Origin: a virus | Length of the DNA: 23,752 nucleotides | Direction: 5' to 3' (one strand) | Virus record (IMG/VR): IMGVR_UViG_3300035698_005767 | Location: 1-23,752 of that record | Shown here: piece after piece, positions 2 through 23,723 of the stretch | Layout: the number at the start of each line of letters is the position of its first letter | How positions within the stretch are numbered: the first letter of the stretch is position 1 | The notes under the pieces: generated by a model | The model's input: the letters and a program-made list of their open reading frames with translations, nothing else | Databases searched by the model: none | Told to the model about the DNA's origin: nothing | Position numbers and translations under genes: made by a program

Positions 2-1831
2 GGTTCAACAATAGCATCAACAGAATATTATAAATTAAGAATGATTAAATATTACACCGAACTTTCTGTTAATCTTGAAGCTAATAAAGGTGTAATCGTT
101 AAAGATTCAGGAGCAGGTAAAGAGGAAATACTTGATCCTTTAAGTACAACATATACAACAACTGCTAACGCACAAGTTAAAATTTATGTAGAAACACCTT
201 CTAATTATTCTACACCTGGTATCTATTATATAGATAAGGAATTTACGTATTCATCAGGTTTACAATTGACAACTACTTATACTTCAATGTCTAATGTTGT
301 TGCTAAATATTCTGATTTTTATGTTGATTTTATAGATGGTCAAATTAATAATGGTGATTATGTAAATGATGATGAAGATAATACATTAACTATGTATGTT
401 GATACTGATGGTATTTTAACTGTTGATTTTACAACAGCACCAATAGCTCCAATAAAAGTAACAACTGATATTGGAAATTGGAAACAAACTCTTGAAGTTG
501 AAAATATAATAACTGACCCTACGAATACAACATCAATTTATGTAGATAAAACAAGATATGCCGAAGTAAAAAGAGGTGATTATTTAGAATCTTATTATGT
601 AGAAGCTGATCTTGAAATTGGACAACAACCAAGAACATTAACAAGAATAATTGATATTAAAAACGATACAGTTGATACAACTCTTAAAATTCTTTACACA
701 GATGATCCTATTAAAATTACAAGTACTGGTGTATCTGGTGAAAATTACACAACTGTTTATCCAGCTATTTGGAAATATGCTACACATTTAAAGGGTACTA
801 AATTAGCTCCATTTAAGTTACATGCAGATTCATTACCAAATGGTACTGAAACAAGACAAAGTAATATTTTAGATATTATTGGAATTGGAACTTCAATGTT
901 CAAAGGTTTAACAAATAAAAACAAGATTTCTTGGAGATATTTAGTTGATTCATTTGGACTTGGTTTAGCAGAATCTTCAAAACAACAATATGTTGATTTA
1001 TGTGGTGAAAAGCTTAACTGTTTAGGTTTTATTAATATGCCATCAGCTAAAGCTTTTAAAAAATCAGATAATCCATCATTTACAAATGATGATGGTTCAT
1101 TAAGTACTGAATATATTAAAGAAGGTGCTAATCAAGATAAAAATCCTAATTTCTTATATTCATTCGGAACTGGTTCTGGTCGTTCAACAGTAGGTTATTT
1201 CTTCCCTTACGTAAAGAATACTGTTGATGGAATTTCTAAAGAAGTACCACCATCTTCATTCGTAGCAGCAGCTTATATGAGAAAACAACTATCAAATGTT
1301 GGTGGTGTTTATCCTTGGACAATCGTTGCTGGTATTAATTTAGGTAGAGTACCTGATATTGGTGGAACAGAAATTGATTTTACTAATGATGGTTTAAGTA
1401 ACATGGCTTCAATGGGAGCTAACCCAATAACTTTCGTAAGAAATGTTGGATATACAATTAATGACGAAAATACAGCACAAGTATTCCCTGTATCATCATT
1501 GAGTTATATGCACAGTAGAGAAGTTCTTATTGAACTTGAAAACGAACTTTATGATATGTTATTGAGATACCAATGGAAATTTAATACACCAGCTATTCGT
1601 TCAGAAATGAAATACAGAGCTGATAGAATATGTCAAAGATATGTAGATTCTAATGCATTATATGCATATAGAAACGTTTGTGATACTTCAAACAACACAA
1701 ATTATATAATTGACCTTCAAGGTGGTGTTCTTGATACATTCGTTGAAATCGTTAAGGGAATGGGTTGGATAGTAAATAATATCACAATTGAAAAAACAGG
1801 TACTATTAATTCAACAGGTTTTCAACAATAA
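2..1831 (+). CDS. 18: contractile tail sheath protein, T4 gp18-like (5' end cut by window)
   Basis: Subunit of the contractile sheath that surrounds the tail tube and drives injection. The C-terminal half has the T4-type sheath signature: 'WRYLVDSFGLGLAESSKQQY', then 'NCLGFINMPSAKAFK', 'YPWTIVAGINLGRVPDI', 'ELENELYDMLLRYQWKFNTP', and a conserved C-terminal strand region ending near 'GWIVNNITIEKTG'. The first ATG in the frame is at 41, but the frame stays open to the window edge and encodes plausible sequence (GSTIASTEYYKLR) before it. The real start therefore probably lies upstream, and 596 residues is a minimum; T4 gp18 is somewhat over 650. A strong terminator hairpin follows directly, and the tube gene is the next structural gene. 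The identification is firm; only the start is unknown. Confidence 0.95.
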   Translation, partial: GSTIASTEYYKLRMIKYYTELSVNLEANKGVIVKDSGAGKEEILDPLSTTYTTTANAQVKIYVETPSNYSTPGIYYIDKEFTYSSGLQLTTTYTSMSNVVAKYSDFYVDFIDGQINNGDYVNDDEDNTLTMYVDTDGILTVDFTTAPIAPIKVTTDIGNWKQTLEVENIITDPTNTTSIYVDKTRYAEVKRGDYLESYYVEADLEIGQQPRTLTRIIDIKNDTVDTTLKILYTDDPIKITSTGVSGENYTTVYPAIWKYATHLKGTKLAPFKLHADSLPNGTETRQSNILDIIGIGTSMFKGLTNKNKISWRYLVDSFGLGLAESSKQQYVDLCGEKLNCLGFINMPSAKAFKKSDNPSFTNDDGSLSTEYIKEGANQDKNPNFLYSFGTGSGRSTVGYFFPYVKNTVDGISKEVPPSSFVAAAYMRKQLSNVGGVYPWTIVAGINLGRVPDIGGTEIDFTNDGLSNMASMGANPITFVRNVGYTINDENTAQVFPVSSLSYMHSREVLIELENELYDMLLRYQWKFNTPAIRSEMKYRADRICQRYVDSNALYAYRNVCDTSNNTNYIIDLQGGVLDTFVEIVKGMGWIVNNITIEKTGTINSTGFQQ

Positions 1832-18916: not shown

Positions 18917-19462
18917 TTATTTATTAAACCAAACAACCTTATTAAGTTTGTATCTTAATAATTTTTCTTTGATATCAGATGGAAAAATAGGAACATCAGT
19001 CATTTTTAAAATTTCTATTGGATCTTCTTTTGTTCCTTCATAACTAGTTTCTACATAAAGACCATACCCATCAGAGTCAACAAAACCACCATTTTTAACA
19101 CTATTTTTAAATTCATTTAATGTCATAACTTCCCCACCATCAGGAATGTTTTGTGTTTCATATGGTCTTATTAATCTTAATTCTTTATTTAACGATTCTA
19201 TTTGTTCATCTATATATTTTGTTAATTCAAGATATTCATTAAGAGATTTATTATAATCCCATGTCTTTAATTTAAAATCTTTATCTATTTTTAATTCAGT
19301 AATTTGTTTTCTTAATTTTGAAACTTGTTTCTTTAATAGTTGTTCTTCTTTATTATAAAGAAAGTCACCTTTATTAAAAACATTTCCATCATCATCAATA
19401 TATTCGTTCTTCATATGCCATCCTCTTGGTGGATTACCTACTGGTTTAATACTATCTTCCAT
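18917..19462 (-). CDS. coiled-coil protein of unknown function
   Basis: 181 residues. Residues about 38-95 (from 'EEQLLKKQVSKLRKQITELK') are a strong coiled coil with heptad-spaced L/I. The C-terminal part has 'GGFVDSDGYGLYVETSYEG' and 'IFPSDIKEKLLRYKLNKVVW', probably a small folded domain. The start ME-DSIKPVGNPPRGWHMKN lies next to a 92-base divergent intergenic region, so this is likely the first gene of the unit that continues into the methyltransferase. The ending RYKLNKVV resembles the basic tails of the genes at 21.7-23.4 kb. No family recognised. Confidence 0.7.
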   Translation of the reverse strand: MEDSIKPVGNPPRGWHMKNEYIDDDGNVFNKGDFLYNKEEQLLKKQVSKLRKQITELKIDKDFKLKTWDYNKSLNEYLELTKYIDEQIESLNKELRLIRPYETQNIPDGGEVMTLNEFKNSVKNGGFVDSDGYGLYVETSYEGTKEDPIEILKMTDVPIFPSDIKEKLLRYKLNKVVWFNK

Positions 19463-19554
19463 AATTTTAATTATTATTTTGTACTTATTATATACTAAAT
19501 CTTTATTTTTGTTTATAAAATTAAATATATAGTAATAAATATAATTTAATTATT
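19463..19554. promoter_or_regulatory. divergent intergenic region with probable promoters for both sides
   Basis: The 92 bases separate a - strand gene starting at 19462 from a + strand gene starting at 19555, so both promoters must lie here or overlap the genes. TAATAAATA (19533-19541) precedes the + gene and is one base from the T4 late core. The sequence is almost entirely A/T, so no element can be called firmly. Confidence 0.4.
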
Positions 19555-19845
19555 ATGAAACATATAAGATTATTTGAGGAATTTGGTAAAGAAGATCCTG
19601 ATGCTGAAATTAGAAACAGAGGGGATGTTGTATTCTCCGCTGAAAGTTCAAAAGTGAAAGACAATAAAGATCACTTTCCTATTAATGATTTAAAACACGG
19701 AAGAAACGCATTAGCGATGGTTCAGAAATATGATTCAGTTCCAAAATGGTATGATGGTACTTTGAAAGAAGTTAAAGATGCTGTTATTAAAGCAGTGCAT
19801 AAAAAATTCCCTTCGATTGAAATATCTGAATTAGACGAAGATTAA
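19555..19845 (+). CDS. lone + strand protein with MKHIRLFEEF leader, unknown function
   Basis: 96 residues and the only + strand gene in the - strand block. It starts MKHIRLFEEFGKED, again matching the leader shared by the late proteins at 7.5-11.2 kb. The rest has 'RGDVVFSAESSKVKDNKDHF' and a helical C-terminus ('GTLKEVKDAVIKAVHKKFPS') that ends in acidic residues. Its stop overlaps the stop region of the opposing gene by 4 bases. Being on the late strand and carrying the leader suggests expression with the virion genes. No family recognised. Confidence 0.72.
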   Translation: MKHIRLFEEFGKEDPDAEIRNRGDVVFSAESSKVKDNKDHFPINDLKHGRNALAMVQKYDSVPKWYDGTLKEVKDAVIKAVHKKFPSIEISELDED

Positions 19846-20582: not shown

Positions 20583-21680
20583 TTAAAATTCGGTTTTATC
20601 TAACATCCAATTCCATTTATCAAATGTTAAATATTTATCAAAAATTTGTTTAGATTTTTCAAAAGTGAAATCATCTAATATTTTTTCTATTTGCCAATGG
20701 TCAGGAAGAATATATTTCTTATATTGTGAATATGAATTAATTTCATCCATCTTTCTTTTAACTGTATGATAATCTTTAACAATGTCAAATCTTTCCTCTG
20801 TTAAATATTTATCAGGATCAGATAAAATCATTTTATAAACATCTAATACTTCATCTACATTTTCATCTGTTGTTATAAGTGATGTTGTAACTAAACCCTG
20901 TGTATCTGAAATATTAGCTATGTGATTATGTACACCATATGTCAATCCTCTTTTTTCTCTAATTTCTTTTGTAAATGGGGATTTAAGTGACATACCTAAC
21001 ATATCTAAAACAAAATCAATTTTAGATATATCATCTTCTACTTCAATATAACCTGCTATACATGCTTTATTAAATTTTGAATTATTCTCAAAAACCAATT
21101 CATCAGATTTAATAGTTTTAAAAGTATCAGGGTGAGTTGTACTAAAATTATCAAACCCATTAAATTCTGAATTTTTTGATATGTTTATAATCATTGATGG
21201 TTTAGAAAGATATTTTTGCCAATAATCATTAATATCTTCATAAGTTAAATTTTCTAATGATTGTAATTTACCAATAGGTCCATAATTACCATAAACTTTT
21301 CTTAATAAATTATAATAAGCTGATGAAAATTGATCTTGGAATGTATCTTTATATTCTTGTATTACTACACTTAATTCTGTTTTAAAATCTTTTTCGGATA
21401 CTTTAAATTTCGATAATGAATTAAGAAGTTCATGTCTATATTTGTAAATATATTCATCTAACCCTTTCATATGAAACACGACTTCATTACCCGATGTATA
21501 TGCGTTCCAATTTATAGAATATCTATCAAAGTCATCATATAAATTTTCAAACATCTTACACATTAAATGCTCCATCAAATGGCTGATCCCATAATTTTTA
21601 GGTTCTTCATTTAATACTGAACCTTTATATACAATATAAAAACCACTTAAATCTGTTGGACTCTTTCTATTTATTATCAT
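20583..21680 (-). CDS. M16-family zinc metallopeptidase
   Basis: 365 residues with the complete M16 pattern. The inverted zinc motif H-x-x-E-H is 'HLMEH' (34-38) inside 'YGISHLMEHLMCKMF', and the third ligand is probably E109 in 'LSVVIQEYKD', about 70 residues later as in the family. The C-terminal M16 domain has 'PFTKEIREKRGLTYGVHNHI' (235-254), including the R/Y pair that binds substrate in active members. Two M16 domains in 365 residues make it a compact M16B-type enzyme, near the lower size limit; such enzymes form a clam-shell dimer that degrades or processes unfolded peptides. Its start overlaps the upstream gene by 14 bases. All catalytic residues are present, so it should be active. 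Family call firm; substrate unknown. Confidence 0.88.
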   Translation of the reverse strand: MIINRKSPTDLSGFYIVYKGSVLNEEPKNYGISHLMEHLMCKMFENLYDDFDRYSINWNAYTSGNEVVFHMKGLDEYIYKYRHELLNSLSKFKVSEKDFKTELSVVIQEYKDTFQDQFSSAYYNLLRKVYGNYGPIGKLQSLENLTYEDINDYWQKYLSKPSMIINISKNSEFNGFDNFSTTHPDTFKTIKSDELVFENNSKFNKACIAGYIEVEDDISKIDFVLDMLGMSLKSPFTKEIREKRGLTYGVHNHIANISDTQGLVTTSLITTDENVDEVLDVYKMILSDPDKYLTEERFDIVKDYHTVKRKMDEINSYSQYKKYILPDHWQIEKILDDFTFEKSKQIFDKYLTFDKWNWMLDKTEF

Positions 21681-21870
21681 ATTTATCTATATTATTTTTT
21701 AGTATTTTATTTATCTTAACATTCCTTTGACTTATTGATATAACTTTATTAAGTTCGTTAAATGTCTTTTTATTTATTATTATATGATTACCTGCACCAT
21801 TTATTGTTTGTCTGTGTGCAATTTTATAAGCATTTTTAAGTAATTCTGATATATCTTTTTTATTACTCAT
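21667..21870 (-). CDS. small basic protein with KINKIL tail
   Basis: 67 residues, MSNKKDISELLKNAYKIAHR at the start. The middle 'NGAGNHIIINKKTFNELNKV' could be a small strand-helix unit. The ending 'SQRNVKINKILKNN' shares the basic tail of the neighbouring genes. It overlaps the previous gene by 8 bases and the M16 gene by 14, so the tail codons lie in the start region of the peptidase. No family recognised. Confidence 0.65.
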   Translation of the reverse strand: MSNKKDISELLKNAYKIAHRQTINGAGNHIIINKKTFNELNKVISISQRNVKINKILKNNIDKYDNK

Positions 21871-22105
21871 GTTTACTTAGTATTTTATTCAACTTTTGTT
21901 TACGGTATTGTCCAAAAGATATAAATCTATTTGCATCAAACGCCCCACTAACTTCATCAATTATTAAAATTGACATAATTTTATACCTGATATTATCTGT
22001 TTTAGTATAAGAATCTACTGTATAAACACCGTATAATTCTACACCAATTATACCTATGTCATCTGCGTCAATTAAAACTACTTTATCTCCTTTTTTAAAT
22101 CCCAT
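21863..22105 (-). CDS. small SH3/KOW-like protein with KLNKIL tail
   Basis: 80 residues. The start MGFKKGDKVVLIDADD and 'VELYGVYTVDSYTKTDN' look like a small SH3-like beta barrel (G-D-x-V opening, then a G-x-Y-x-V strand). 'ILIIDEVSGAFDANRFISFG' is followed by the tail 'QYRKQKLNKILSKHE'. Such barrels often bind nucleic acid or protein; here it is unproven. It overlaps the upstream gene by 11 bases and the next by 8. Confidence 0.68.
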   Translation of the reverse strand: MGFKKGDKVVLIDADDIGIIGVELYGVYTVDSYTKTDNIRYKIMSILIIDEVSGAFDANRFISFGQYRKQKLNKILSKHE

Positions 22106-22436
22106 TATTTTCCATTTGATGTTTAAATACCATACTTCTTATTTTAGATAATTTTCTTTGTCTTTGTGATATTAGTGTGTGATTGGTATACATTTCTATA
22201 TAACCATGAATTGTTTTAAATTCATTTAACCCTGAATTGAAAATAAAATGTATACCATCAGAATCTTTTAAATTGGTTATGAATTTTTCAAATGATTTTT
22301 CATCCCATACAGGATAAGAACCAAATACATGTTTAAGACATTCTTTTTTAAATTTTTTTTCATCATTTATTATTACAAATGTCCCAAACATTACACCTTC
22401 TTCTAAAAGTATTTGTGTTAATTCCCAATTAGTCAT
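22095..22436 (-). CDS. protein of unknown function with KLSKI tail
   Basis: 113 residues, MTNWELTQILLEEGVMFGTF at the start. It contains a helical middle ('PVWDEKSFEKFITNLKDSDG') and strands 'IHFIFNSGLNEFKTIHGYIE', then 'SQRQRKLSKIRSM' near the end, matching the basic tail of its neighbours. It begins 1 base after the previous gene's stop and overlaps the following gene by 11. No family recognised. Confidence 0.65.
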   Translation of the reverse strand: MTNWELTQILLEEGVMFGTFVIINDEKKFKKECLKHVFGSYPVWDEKSFEKFITNLKDSDGIHFIFNSGLNEFKTIHGYIEMYTNHTLISQRQRKLSKIRSMVFKHQMENNGI

Positions 22437-22437
22437 G

Positions 22438-22716
22438 TTATTTCGTATTATACAAATTATTTATCAAATTATCAAGTTTCAATTTCCTGAAAAATGATAT
22501 TCTAACCTTATCGAATATTTCTTGAATTTCACCAACAGCATCAAGTTCTTGATTAAAATCAGCTAAAATAGAATAAATCTCATTATCTGAATCTATATTA
22601 ACAACATCAAAACCTATGTTAGATTTTATTTCTTTTTGATCACTAATCAACAAATTCTCTATAACATATCCATTAGGTGAATCTTTTTTAATATGTATTT
22701 CAAAGTATATTAACAT
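22438..22716 (-). CDS. protein of unknown function with KLKLDNL tail
   Basis: 92 residues. The N-terminus (MLIYFEIHIKKDSPNGYVIE) and 'IGFDVVNIDSDNEIYSILAD' suggest an alpha/beta fold. It is acidic in the middle and then switches to the basic end 'ISFFRKLKLDNLINN'. It overlaps the upstream gene by 7 bases. No motif recognised. Confidence 0.65.
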   Translation of the reverse strand: MLIYFEIHIKKDSPNGYVIENLLISDQKEIKSNIGFDVVNIDSDNEIYSILADFNQELDAVGEIQEIFDKVRISFFRKLKLDNLINNLYNTK

Positions 22717-22970
22717 TTATCTTTTATCTTGTCAATTTTTTTATTTCTTAATTCATCCATAGCTATTTTACAATAATATTTACCTGTTCTTGTGTTCCCC
22801 ATAAAATACTTTTGATCCATAACAAACGTAGATTCTCTTTTTATCCATTCTCCAGAATCTTTTTGTATTTTAACTTCTTCTAAAAATTTATAATAAGCTA
22901 AATCCGTTATTTCATTGGAATCAATAAAATTCCAAAAACCTAATTTTTTTATTTCATTTAACATTTCCAT
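22710..22970 (-). CDS. protein of unknown function with KKIDKI tail
   Basis: 86 residues, MEMLNEIKKLGFWNFIDSNE at the start, with a helical middle and 'FVMDQKYFMGNTRTGKYYCK' before the end 'ELRNKKIDKIKDKC'. An alternative start, Met3, lies 6 bases downstream. It overlaps the protease gene by 17 bases. The single Cys residues do not form a zinc motif. Not recognised. Confidence 0.65.
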   Translation of the reverse strand: MEMLNEIKKLGFWNFIDSNEITDLAYYKFLEEVKIQKDSGEWIKRESTFVMDQKYFMGNTRTGKYYCKIAMDELRNKKIDKIKDKC

Positions 22971-23397
22971 TTTTCAATCTTTCTAATATTCTGTTTAATT
23001 TCTTACTTCTTTTTTGTAAGGAAGTTTCAGGTCTTGGTATAAAATCAAAAGCAGTTATACTTTCCATTACTATTTTCCCATTAACTATTTCACCTTTCCC
23101 TCTACTGGATATATCAAAATTTATATCCATATCTTTTAATTCCTGTAATATATTTCCTGATTCAGTATCTAATATTTTTATTTCAGCCCATATACCATCA
23201 TCATAAACTTCAATATCTTTAATAACGTGAGAAACATTACTTAATAATACATCTGTACCAACTTCCCCATCATGTGATAATTCACCCATTAACATTCCTC
23301 TATTACTTATATCTTCTAATTTACCCCAATCATAACTATTCTTGTCATAAATTCTCCCGTTTTTATTCTTTCCAAATTCTATTAATCTATCTTTCAT
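22954..23397 (-). CDS. S77-like serine protease, T4 gp21 prohead protease type
   Basis: 147 residues. Three blocks match T4 gp21: 'NKNGRIYDKNSY' (11-22; gp21 has NRNKRLYP), 'MGELSHD' with catalytic His42 (gp21 GELNHP), and 'DISSRGKGE' with nucleophile Ser97 (gp21 VSSRGLGS). The third catalytic acid is probably D118 in 'ITAFDFIPRPE'. His42 to Ser97 is 55 residues, the same as His85 to Ser140 that I recall for gp21. It is shorter than gp21 (about 212) at both ends and has a basic tail instead. gp21 normally cleaves scaffold, capsid and internal head proteins. Here it lies in a run of small - strand genes with no portal or capsid gene visible, so its substrate is uncertain. Confidence 0.82.
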   Translation of the reverse strand: MKDRLIEFGKNKNGRIYDKNSYDWGKLEDISNRGMLMGELSHDGEVGTDVLLSNVSHVIKDIEVYDDGIWAEIKILDTESGNILQELKDMDINFDISSRGKGEIVNGKIVMESITAFDFIPRPETSLQKRSKKLNRILERLKNGNVK

Positions 23398-23723
23398 TAA
23401 AATAACGAATTAAATTTTCTTTTATCTTCCCTAAAAGGTTTTAATAATTTAGGTGATAAATAGTAGTACCCTATCTTATAGTCGGCATATTCCACCAAGT
23501 TTACTTGCCAATAAACCTTTTCGGTTCTTCCTTCAGGAATTAACCAATAATAAAAGAAAGATTCATCTGATACTTCATCAGGTAGTGGTTGATTAAACTT
23601 AGATAATAAATTAACTTCTAATTGTTCATCTGTTAATTCTACATAATCACCACGACCACCATGAACAACTCGTTCAAAGTCATTAGCAAATAAAGTACCA
23701 TCTAAGAAATATAAATTATACAT
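23397..23723 (-). CDS. conserved phage-type protein of unknown function
   Basis: 108 residues, MYNLYFLDGTLFANDFERVV at the start. A strand-rich part with 'FFYYWLIPEGRTEKVYWQVN' and 'YADYKIGYYYLSPKLL' looks like a compact beta fold. It ends 'REDKRKFNSLF', the shortest version of the operon's basic tail. Its stop TAA shares one base with the protease ATG, so the two are translationally coupled. It is the first - strand gene visible at the right edge; 29 A/T-rich bases remain beyond its start. Confidence 0.7.
   Translation of the reverse strand: MYNLYFLDGTLFANDFERVVHGGRGDYVELTDEQLEVNLLSKFNQPLPDEVSDESFFYYWLIPEGRTEKVYWQVNLVEYADYKIGYYYLSPKLLKPFREDKRKFNSLF

Follow-up and report, generated by a model that had tools for sequence, protein, structure and literature searches.

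A common C-terminal peptide, probably a docking tag, on unrelated small proteins of a huge phage

Many otherwise unrelated small proteins of a group of huge phages carry one common peptide near the C terminus, and the explanation that fits best is that this peptide serves early accessory proteins as a docking tag. We regard this account as probable, and the docking tag itself, considered apart from what reads it, as slightly firmer still. In the window, the whole stretch of 23,752 nucleotides that was analysed, the motif R-x-x-K-[IL]-x-x-[IL] ends six consecutive minus-strand genes between 21667 and 23397 (Table 1). An earlier note on this DNA had listed eight similar tails, and their coordinates and peptides are as it gave them. 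Six of the eight (21667, 21863, 22095, 22438, 22710 and 22954) fit the pattern used for matching, R..[KR][ILVMF]..[ILVMF]; the other two have been set aside. The end of the 18917 product aligns with that of its homolog in the untagged genome LR756500 and so belongs to the domain, and DKRKFNSLF of the 23397 gene misfits the pattern. For the 14 genes on the minus strand between 17 and 23.7 kb, tails made of shuffled residues, of shuffled codons or of first-order Markov DNA gave a mean of 0.3 matches and a maximum of 4–5; six were never reached in 5000 runs. Random A-rich 3' ends, which had been named as a possible source of the pattern, thus do not produce it. In the window proteins the tag often stands 10–20 residues before the end, so that it needs no free carboxylate.

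Table 1. Tagged genes of the window, their tags and the features compared with them
Feature	Position	Strand	Match or remark
C-terminal tag RNVKINKIL of gene 21667-21870	21700..21726	-	
C-terminal tag RKQKLNKIL of gene 21863-22105	21878..21904	-	
C-terminal tag RQRKLSKIR of gene 22095-22436	22137..22163	-	
C-terminal tag RKLKLDNLI of gene 22438-22716	22462..22488	-	
C-terminal tag RNKKIDKIK of gene 22710-22970	22722..22748	-	
C-terminal tag RSKKLNRIL of gene 22954-23397	22984..23010	-	
Small tagged protein without family match	21667..21870	-	
Small tagged protein without family match	21863..22105	-	
Small tagged protein without family match	22095..22436	-	
Small tagged protein without family match	22438..22716	-	
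Small tagged protein without family match	22710..22970	-	
Tagged stand-alone piece resembling head maturation protease residues ~31-159	22954..23397	-	phrog_207, E 4e-17
Untagged gene, end belongs to domain	18917..19462	-	end shared with untagged homolog
Untagged gene, end does not fit tag	23397..23723	-	homologs in Lak-A1 and LR756500 untagged
Late-like motif AAATATATAG before N-terminally tagged gene 19555-19845	19523..19532	+	
Gene with N-terminal tag MKHIRLFEE, contrast class, like 7502 and 11135	19555..19845	+	

Homology in core genes marks the window as a fragment of a Mahaphage-related huge phage; the Mahaphage clade has been described previously (PMC7162821). The best matches of its tail sheath gene (41-1831) lie in genomes of 735 kb and 635–642 kb, with 47–50% identity; for its AAA ATPase the first IMG/VR search returned no relative. 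In three related complete genomes of 634–642 kb the tag occurs near the C terminus of 190/993, 183/961 and 167/942 proteins, against about 4–5 expected per complete genome and 6–9 obtained with reversed tails. Two partial genomes carry it on 93 of 333 proteins (G002) and on 60 of 470 (G003), the latter count including some false and subclass matches. Up to a fifth of the proteins are tagged in this fragment and its relatives, which are among the largest known phages, and in the relatives the tag lies within the last ~8–25 residues. It is absent from two relatives, of 735 kb and 462 kb, and from six known phages that were sampled; no published description of it was found in the literature searched. 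The phenomenon is real and larger than first supposed, and the sorting or docking role that had been put forward as one of two possibilities is strongly supported by the relatives.

Apart from the tag, the bearers appear to have little in common. The 190 tagged proteins fall into 185 BLAST clusters and, by sequence comparison, are otherwise unrelated to each other. Among 120 tagged proteins, two Pfam and six PHROG families were matched by one member each, and nearly all are classed as ORFans. The product of gene 22954-23397 matches part of full head maturation proteases of 594–807 aa (blastp); its ortholog in LR756501 ends in DPYGEENW. Here a weak single-sequence model, one of two low-confidence models that predict C-terminal helices, places RSKKLNRIL inside such a helix (residues 126–142). 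The tagged genes are not enriched for head-protein fragments, untagged fragments being equally common, and group I or II introns as the origin of an RKxKIxxIF subclass found no match in Rfam.

The wording of the tag differs between lineages. Its consensus is R[DNE]xK[IL][ND][KE][IL][LG] in W02 and W03 and RKx[KRI]I[ED][NED]L[LI] in W04, a genome-wide shift that suggests a co-evolving receptor. It is mainly from this shift of the tags as a set that we infer a receptor common to all tagged proteins.

Selection acts on the protein, and the tag is probably read at the protein level. In 52 ortholog pairs from W02 and W03 the arginine is kept in 52/52, and amino-acid identity is 0.61 in the tag as against 0.44 in the body. 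Codon identity among conserved residues is 0.59 in the tag, 0.53 in the body and 0.56 in untagged tails, which gives the tag no clear excess over the body. The codon difference first noticed within the window was confirmed: KLN-x-IL is written TTG AAT AAA ATA CTA in gene 21863 and TTA AAC AGA ATA TTA in gene 22954.

These observations bear on a reading in which the peptide is a by-product of a translation signal: in a host that makes no use of Shine-Dalgarno sequences, an A-rich, unstructured stretch of RNA close to the 3' end would help ribosomes to start on the following gene. In the relatives, overlap with the next start is indeed commoner for tagged than for untagged genes (43–48% vs 17–26%), and late tag positions favour the codons ATA, TTA and GGA, which suit overlapping ATGA starts. 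Against this, the downstream neighbour of 16–24% of the tagged genes in the three complete genomes is convergent and offers no start codon to serve; the tag is retained in sixteen W02/W03 ortholog pairs whose downstream context has changed, and a further eight pairs have no near same-strand start in either genome. Arginine codons in the tag match background usage, and reversed or permuted tag patterns show no enrichment. The tag thus neither depends on a nearby downstream start nor displays the nucleotide-level constraint expected of translation coupling, which makes this reading highly improbable. As the cause of the tails, the initiation sequence offered earlier is refuted; what survives of the dual-use idea is that the 3' ends of tagged genes also carry overlapping starts. 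Still more remote is the notion that the tag marks the end of a mobile DNA cassette or a recombination site, coding by accident and spread between genes by recombination. Such an element would give unrelated neighbouring genes common 3' ends, but the tag codons largely follow background use, and the consensus is fixed in the reading frame, with synonymous variety and with lineage differences at the amino acid level.

The tagged genes also appear to form a distinct expression class. A late-like promoter motif precedes 13 of 693 tagged genes and 558 of 3006 others (p 5e-38), and among small genes alone the figures are 9/644 tagged and 272/1861 untagged. The small, fast-evolving tagged proteins are probably expressed early, 'early' here being read from the missing late-like motif. 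The same genomes contain a separate N-terminal tag, MKHLKKFNES-like, behind the late-like promoter, and its sequence resembles the capsid-targeting sequence of T4. N- and C-terminal tags avoid each other, occurring together in only 5 of the 693 tagged genes (p 2e-9). Terminal peptides load T4 internal head proteins into the capsid (PMC5694885), and the C-terminal tag could likewise send its bearers into the head, to be injected together with the DNA; host-takeover proteins delivered in this way might well form such unrelated, fast-evolving sets, and head-protein pieces occur among the tagged proteins. Yet the capsid-type signal of these phages seems to be the N-terminal one, coupled to a promoter that the C-tagged genes avoid, and capsid loading is accordingly an unlikely role for the C-terminal tag.

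Under the preferred docking explanation, unrelated small phage proteins with fast turnover and non-late expression each end in one short peptide, R-[D/N/E or K]-x-K-[I/L]-x-x-[I/L]-[L/I/G], which is probably helical. Its most likely job would be recruitment, by which between dozens and nearly two hundred host-takeover proteins would gather at a single phage-encoded machine or site. The best single candidate for the reader is a phage-encoded ClpC-type unfoldase with ClpP; the evidence is mixed, and this assignment is tentative and less likely than not. With such a reader the tag might act as a degron for the timed removal of early proteins or, alternatively, as an adaptor tether that delivers bound targets. 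A ClpC-type AAA+ protein and a canonical ClpP are both encoded in the tagged genomes W02, W03, W04, G004 and G008, the picture being partial for others, whereas one or both are missing in the untagged LR756501, Lak-A1, phage G, LR756508, PTm1, PAU, MaF61 and T4. The VGF loop, typical of ClpP partners, is seen in W02, W03, W04 and G003, and the ClpC UVR segment recurs as a copy in a tagged small protein of W02, W03 and G003. Weighing against this candidate, the link is drawn from few, related genomes, 37 W03 families fit a broader profile (present in W01–W04 and G003, not in W05 or G009), ClpP without the tag is common, many of the window's tags lie some way before the end, and it would be odd for a phage to put a degron on a fifth of the proteins it makes.

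The chances are about even that the docking tag is read by something else, for instance an Hsp70/Hsp40 pair of the phage, RNA polymerase, the ribosome or a replication compartment. Hsp70-binding peptides have a hydrophobic core flanked by basic residues, which the tag resembles; the 37 families with the broader profile include DnaK- and DnaJ-like proteins, so called by their sequence; and most of the probability given to docking is not bound to ClpC. Several other readers or markers of the tag were discarded. Loss of the ClpC N-domain fails, as G008 has both domain and tag and LR756508 neither; ClpP alone is contradicted by Lak-A1 and phage G; and PrkA, considered as the reader, is present in the untagged G009 and was not found in the tagged G002, G003 and G004, which are possibly incomplete. 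A tagged gene adjoins clpP in W02, W03 and W04, which is not beyond chance, since about 19% of genes bear the tag and there is more than one neighbour slot, several in fact, to be filled. The DPYGEE peptide of the 735 kb genome is not an exact counterpart of the tag: its C-terminal copies have no promoter class, and it offers a parallel, no proof.

In the largest known phages, ORFans that give no clue to function make up the majority of genes. The tag marks about a fifth of such genes as one functional class, and so provides a handle on them; it predicts a common receptor and sets its bearers apart from late virion-bound proteins. If a proteolytic machine proved to be the receptor, this would be a case of a phage using a modular code to organise host takeover. 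A bolder proposal, for which the chances are slim, is that the tag is a lineage-specific recruitment password making nearly two hundred small early proteins interchangeable adaptors, each binding a different target of the host or of a rival phage and handing it over to one phage-encoded machine, possibly ClpC/ClpP; DPYGEE[DNE]W of the 735 kb relative would then be another phage's password. If true, new takeover functions would be gained by putting the tag on any binding protein.

Among known systems, the T4 capsid-targeting sequence is likewise one short terminal peptide common to unrelated phage proteins, and a sorting signal on internal head proteins. It is N-terminal, stands on late virion proteins and is cut by the head protease; the present tag is C-terminal, unrelated in sequence, found on far more proteins and carried by non-late genes (late-like motif in 13/693 vs 558/3006). 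SsrA-type degrons of ClpXP and ClpAP are, like the tag, short C-terminal peptides on unrelated proteins, which a tag of this kind would deliver to a Clp machine. In contrast to SsrA, the present tag is gene-encoded rather than added by tmRNA, often lies 10–20 residues from the end and has no fixed last residue. A known small phage protein acting through the ClpC machine in takeover recalls the tagged proteins, but it is a single protein that targets host ClpC and carries no common tag; the ClpC and ClpP considered here are encoded by the phage itself, and their link to the tag is conjectural. The PicA pathway imports proteins selectively into the phage nucleus (PMC11087766). Like the tag system, it is a phage-encoded route that sorts phage proteins. 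We know of no common short terminal tag for this route. Encapsulin cargo-loading and microcompartment encapsulation peptides are short, terminal, often helical and common to unrelated cargo; compared with these, the present tag is found on a far larger number of proteins.

The 23,752-base virus record carries tail-like genes on its plus strand, among them one for a tail sheath, and a series of small genes on its minus strand from approximately 17 kb. The sheath is 47-50% identical to its counterparts in LR756501 (W01, 735 kb), LR756502 (W02, 642 kb), LR745206 (W03, 635 kb) and LR756504 (W04, 636 kb), all genomes of the Mahaphage group (PMC7162821). Six consecutive minus-strand genes of the window, spanning 21667-23397, end in the pattern R..[KR][ILVMF]..[ILVMF]. 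Of the 14 genes that this strand carries from 17 kb on, chance models in which residues or codons are shuffled, or tails are drawn from Markov DNA, make 0.3 match on average, and six matches did not come up in any of 5000 runs. Eight similar tails had been listed in the earlier note: six fit one pattern, whereas two drop out. The end of the gene at 18917 is part of a domain common to an untagged homologue in the relative LR756500 (W05, 462 kb); that of the gene at 23397 mismatches the pattern, and its homologues in Lak-A1 and W05 are untagged. At its end the tagged run overlaps with a same-strand gene for an M16-family peptidase, which has homologues in W01-W04 and the partial IMG/VR genome G003 and none in W05 or G009.

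With genes of the unannotated relatives called by a simple longest-ORF picker, which makes the counts approximate, a position matrix built from tails assigns the tag to 190 of 993 proteins in W02, 183 of 961 in W03 and 167 of 942 in W04; the expectation from internal stretches is 4-5 per genome, and reversed tails give 6-9. Tagged proteins also occur in the partial IMG/VR genomes G002 (93/333) and G003 (60/470), some false and subclass matches included. The fixed pattern stays at background level in W01 and W05, where a retrained matrix does return a few weak matches (35 and 24 vs 9 and 4 expected). Just 0-2 matches are present in 50-kb samples of Lak-A1, PTm1, PAU, MaF61, phage G and T4, and LR756508 has them in 3 of 225 genes. 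Among 88 further IMG/VR loci of at least eight genes each, retrieved by searching for the tag pattern, 19 contain at least three tagged genes forming at least 15% of the locus genes, a threshold that none of the 88 reaches with the reversed pattern.

The arginine of the tag is almost invariant (189/190 in W02). It is followed by K at +3, I or L at +4 and +7, and L, I or G at +8, and lies usually 9-12 residues from the end in the relatives and 12-22 in the window. Two AlphaFold models, one for a tagged family and one for the window 22954 protein, put the tag in a C-terminal helix, both with low confidence (mean pLDDT 57 and 42). The residues favoured at +1 are D, N or E in W02 and W03 but K in W04, which also favours I at +4: this shift of the whole tag set between lineages argues for one receptor that would co-evolve with all tags.

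Codons of the key-position arginine follow genome usage (for example, AGA 0.69 vs 0.71 in W02). Across the W02/W03 orthologue pairs tagged in both genomes, the arginine is identical in 52/52, identity is 0.61 in the tag vs 0.44 in the body, and codon identity at unchanged residues is 0.59 vs 0.53. The next gene is convergent after 16-24% of tagged genes; 16 pairs keep the tag despite an altered downstream context, and in 8 a near same-strand start is absent from both genomes. Tag state is concordant in 52 pairs vs discordant in 11, several of which retain a degenerate tag. Because the arginine codons are at background, the tag is more conserved than the body and convergent or changed contexts retain it, the tag is under selection as a peptide. 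Overlap with the following gene is more frequent among tagged genes than among others, and the last codons of tagged genes are biased, so the tag shares space with overlapping starts.

The carriers are small (median 101-112 aa). BLAST clustering resolves the 190 proteins of W02 into 185 clusters and the 167 of W04 into 125, with some paralogue groups, and among 120 tagged W03 proteins the only family matches are to 2 Pfam and 6 PHROG families, by one member each. Genes with W01 orthologues are almost never tagged. A late-like motif, TAATATATA and variants, which was identified via operon comparison and precedes some structural genes, lies upstream of 13/693 tagged vs 558/3006 other genes and, among small genes, of 9/644 vs 272/1861. 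In W02-W04 it often precedes genes whose products begin with a second tag, MKHLKKFNES or MKYIKEYEEF. This N-terminal tag, carried by 21-57 proteins in each of W02-W05 and by three in the window, looks like the T4 capsid-targeting sequence (PMC5694885). Both tags meet on one protein in 5 of the 693 cases. Since late-like motif and N-terminal tag rarely accompany the C-terminal one, the latter marks a different, non-late gene class, whose expression would presumably be early.

W01 has another motif, DPYGEE[DNE]W, in 106 copies across 91 proteins, encoded by 49 distinct 18-mers: 40-47 copies lie at the extreme C-terminus, some on pieces of the major head protein and head protease, and the rest are N-proximal or internal. 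Tiny ORFs (35-83 aa), mostly with the variant tail RKxKIxxIF, are found in W03, G003, L177 and G002; their snippets resemble major head protein, head protease, DNA polymerase or what we take, from sequence, to be terminase. Five such stretches were scanned and contain no Rfam intron.

Coordinates of features in the window and its relatives
Feature	Record	Position	Strand
Tail sheath gene	window	41-1831	+
M16-family peptidase gene	window	20583-21680	-
N-terminally tagged gene	window	7502	
N-terminally tagged gene	window	11135	
N-terminally tagged gene	window	19555	
DPYGEE[DNE]W example	LR756501.1	145891-146127	
DPYGEE[DNE]W example	LR756501.1	502266-506309	
DPYGEE[DNE]W example	LR756501.1	552104-555773	
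Tiny ORF	LR745206.1	83154-83393	
Tiny ORF	LR745206.1	255010-255237	
Tiny ORF	LR745206.1	308370-308522	
Tiny ORF	LR745206.1	460435-460686	
Tiny ORF	G003	41205-41381	
Tiny ORF	G003	342611-342796	
Tiny ORF	L177	7175-7423	
Tiny ORF	G002	169311-169442	

A ClpC-type AAA+ protein, with two AAA domains and, in W02 and W03, a UVR segment, occurs together with canonical ClpP in W02, W03, W04, G004 and G008; the VGF loop is present in W02, W03, W04 and G003. W01 has a ClpB-like protein with the N-domain, without the VGF loop and without ClpP; in Lak-A1 and phage G, canonical ClpP is accompanied by no more than a weaker match to the Clp C-terminal domain; LR756508 combines a ClpC-like protein with a ClpP match that is only weak; W05 offers nothing beyond weak ClpP-like matches. 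A tagged small protein carries a copy of the ClpC UVR segment in three genomes, and SPO1 Gp53 illustrates that phages are able to act through ClpC (PMC6873191). As receptor evidence this distribution is suggestive but no proof: it comes from related genomes, some of them fragments, 37 families of W03 have the same broader profile, and the ClpC N-domain does not track the tag. ClpC/ClpP is the leading single candidate for the receptor, with a fairly low probability. The distribution of PrkA, also considered, does not follow the tag. W02-W04 and relatives encode a proteostasis set of their own, comprising DnaK- and DnaJ-like proteins, a ClpC-type AAA+ protein, two ClpP, a ClpX-like protein (W04), M16 and M28-like peptidases, and PrkA with SpoVR.

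These phages thus bear a peptide tag, selected at the protein level, on unrelated non-late accessory proteins. The peptide would dock each protein onto a common phage-encoded receptor; if this were ClpC/ClpP, one might speculate that early proteins undergo timely removal or hand over the targets they have bound. No account of a tag of this kind came up in a search of the open-access literature, with most subscription papers outside it. We know of no C-terminal tag that has a lineage-specific consensus and sits on one in five proteins of a phage; terminal sorting peptides as such are a known kind.
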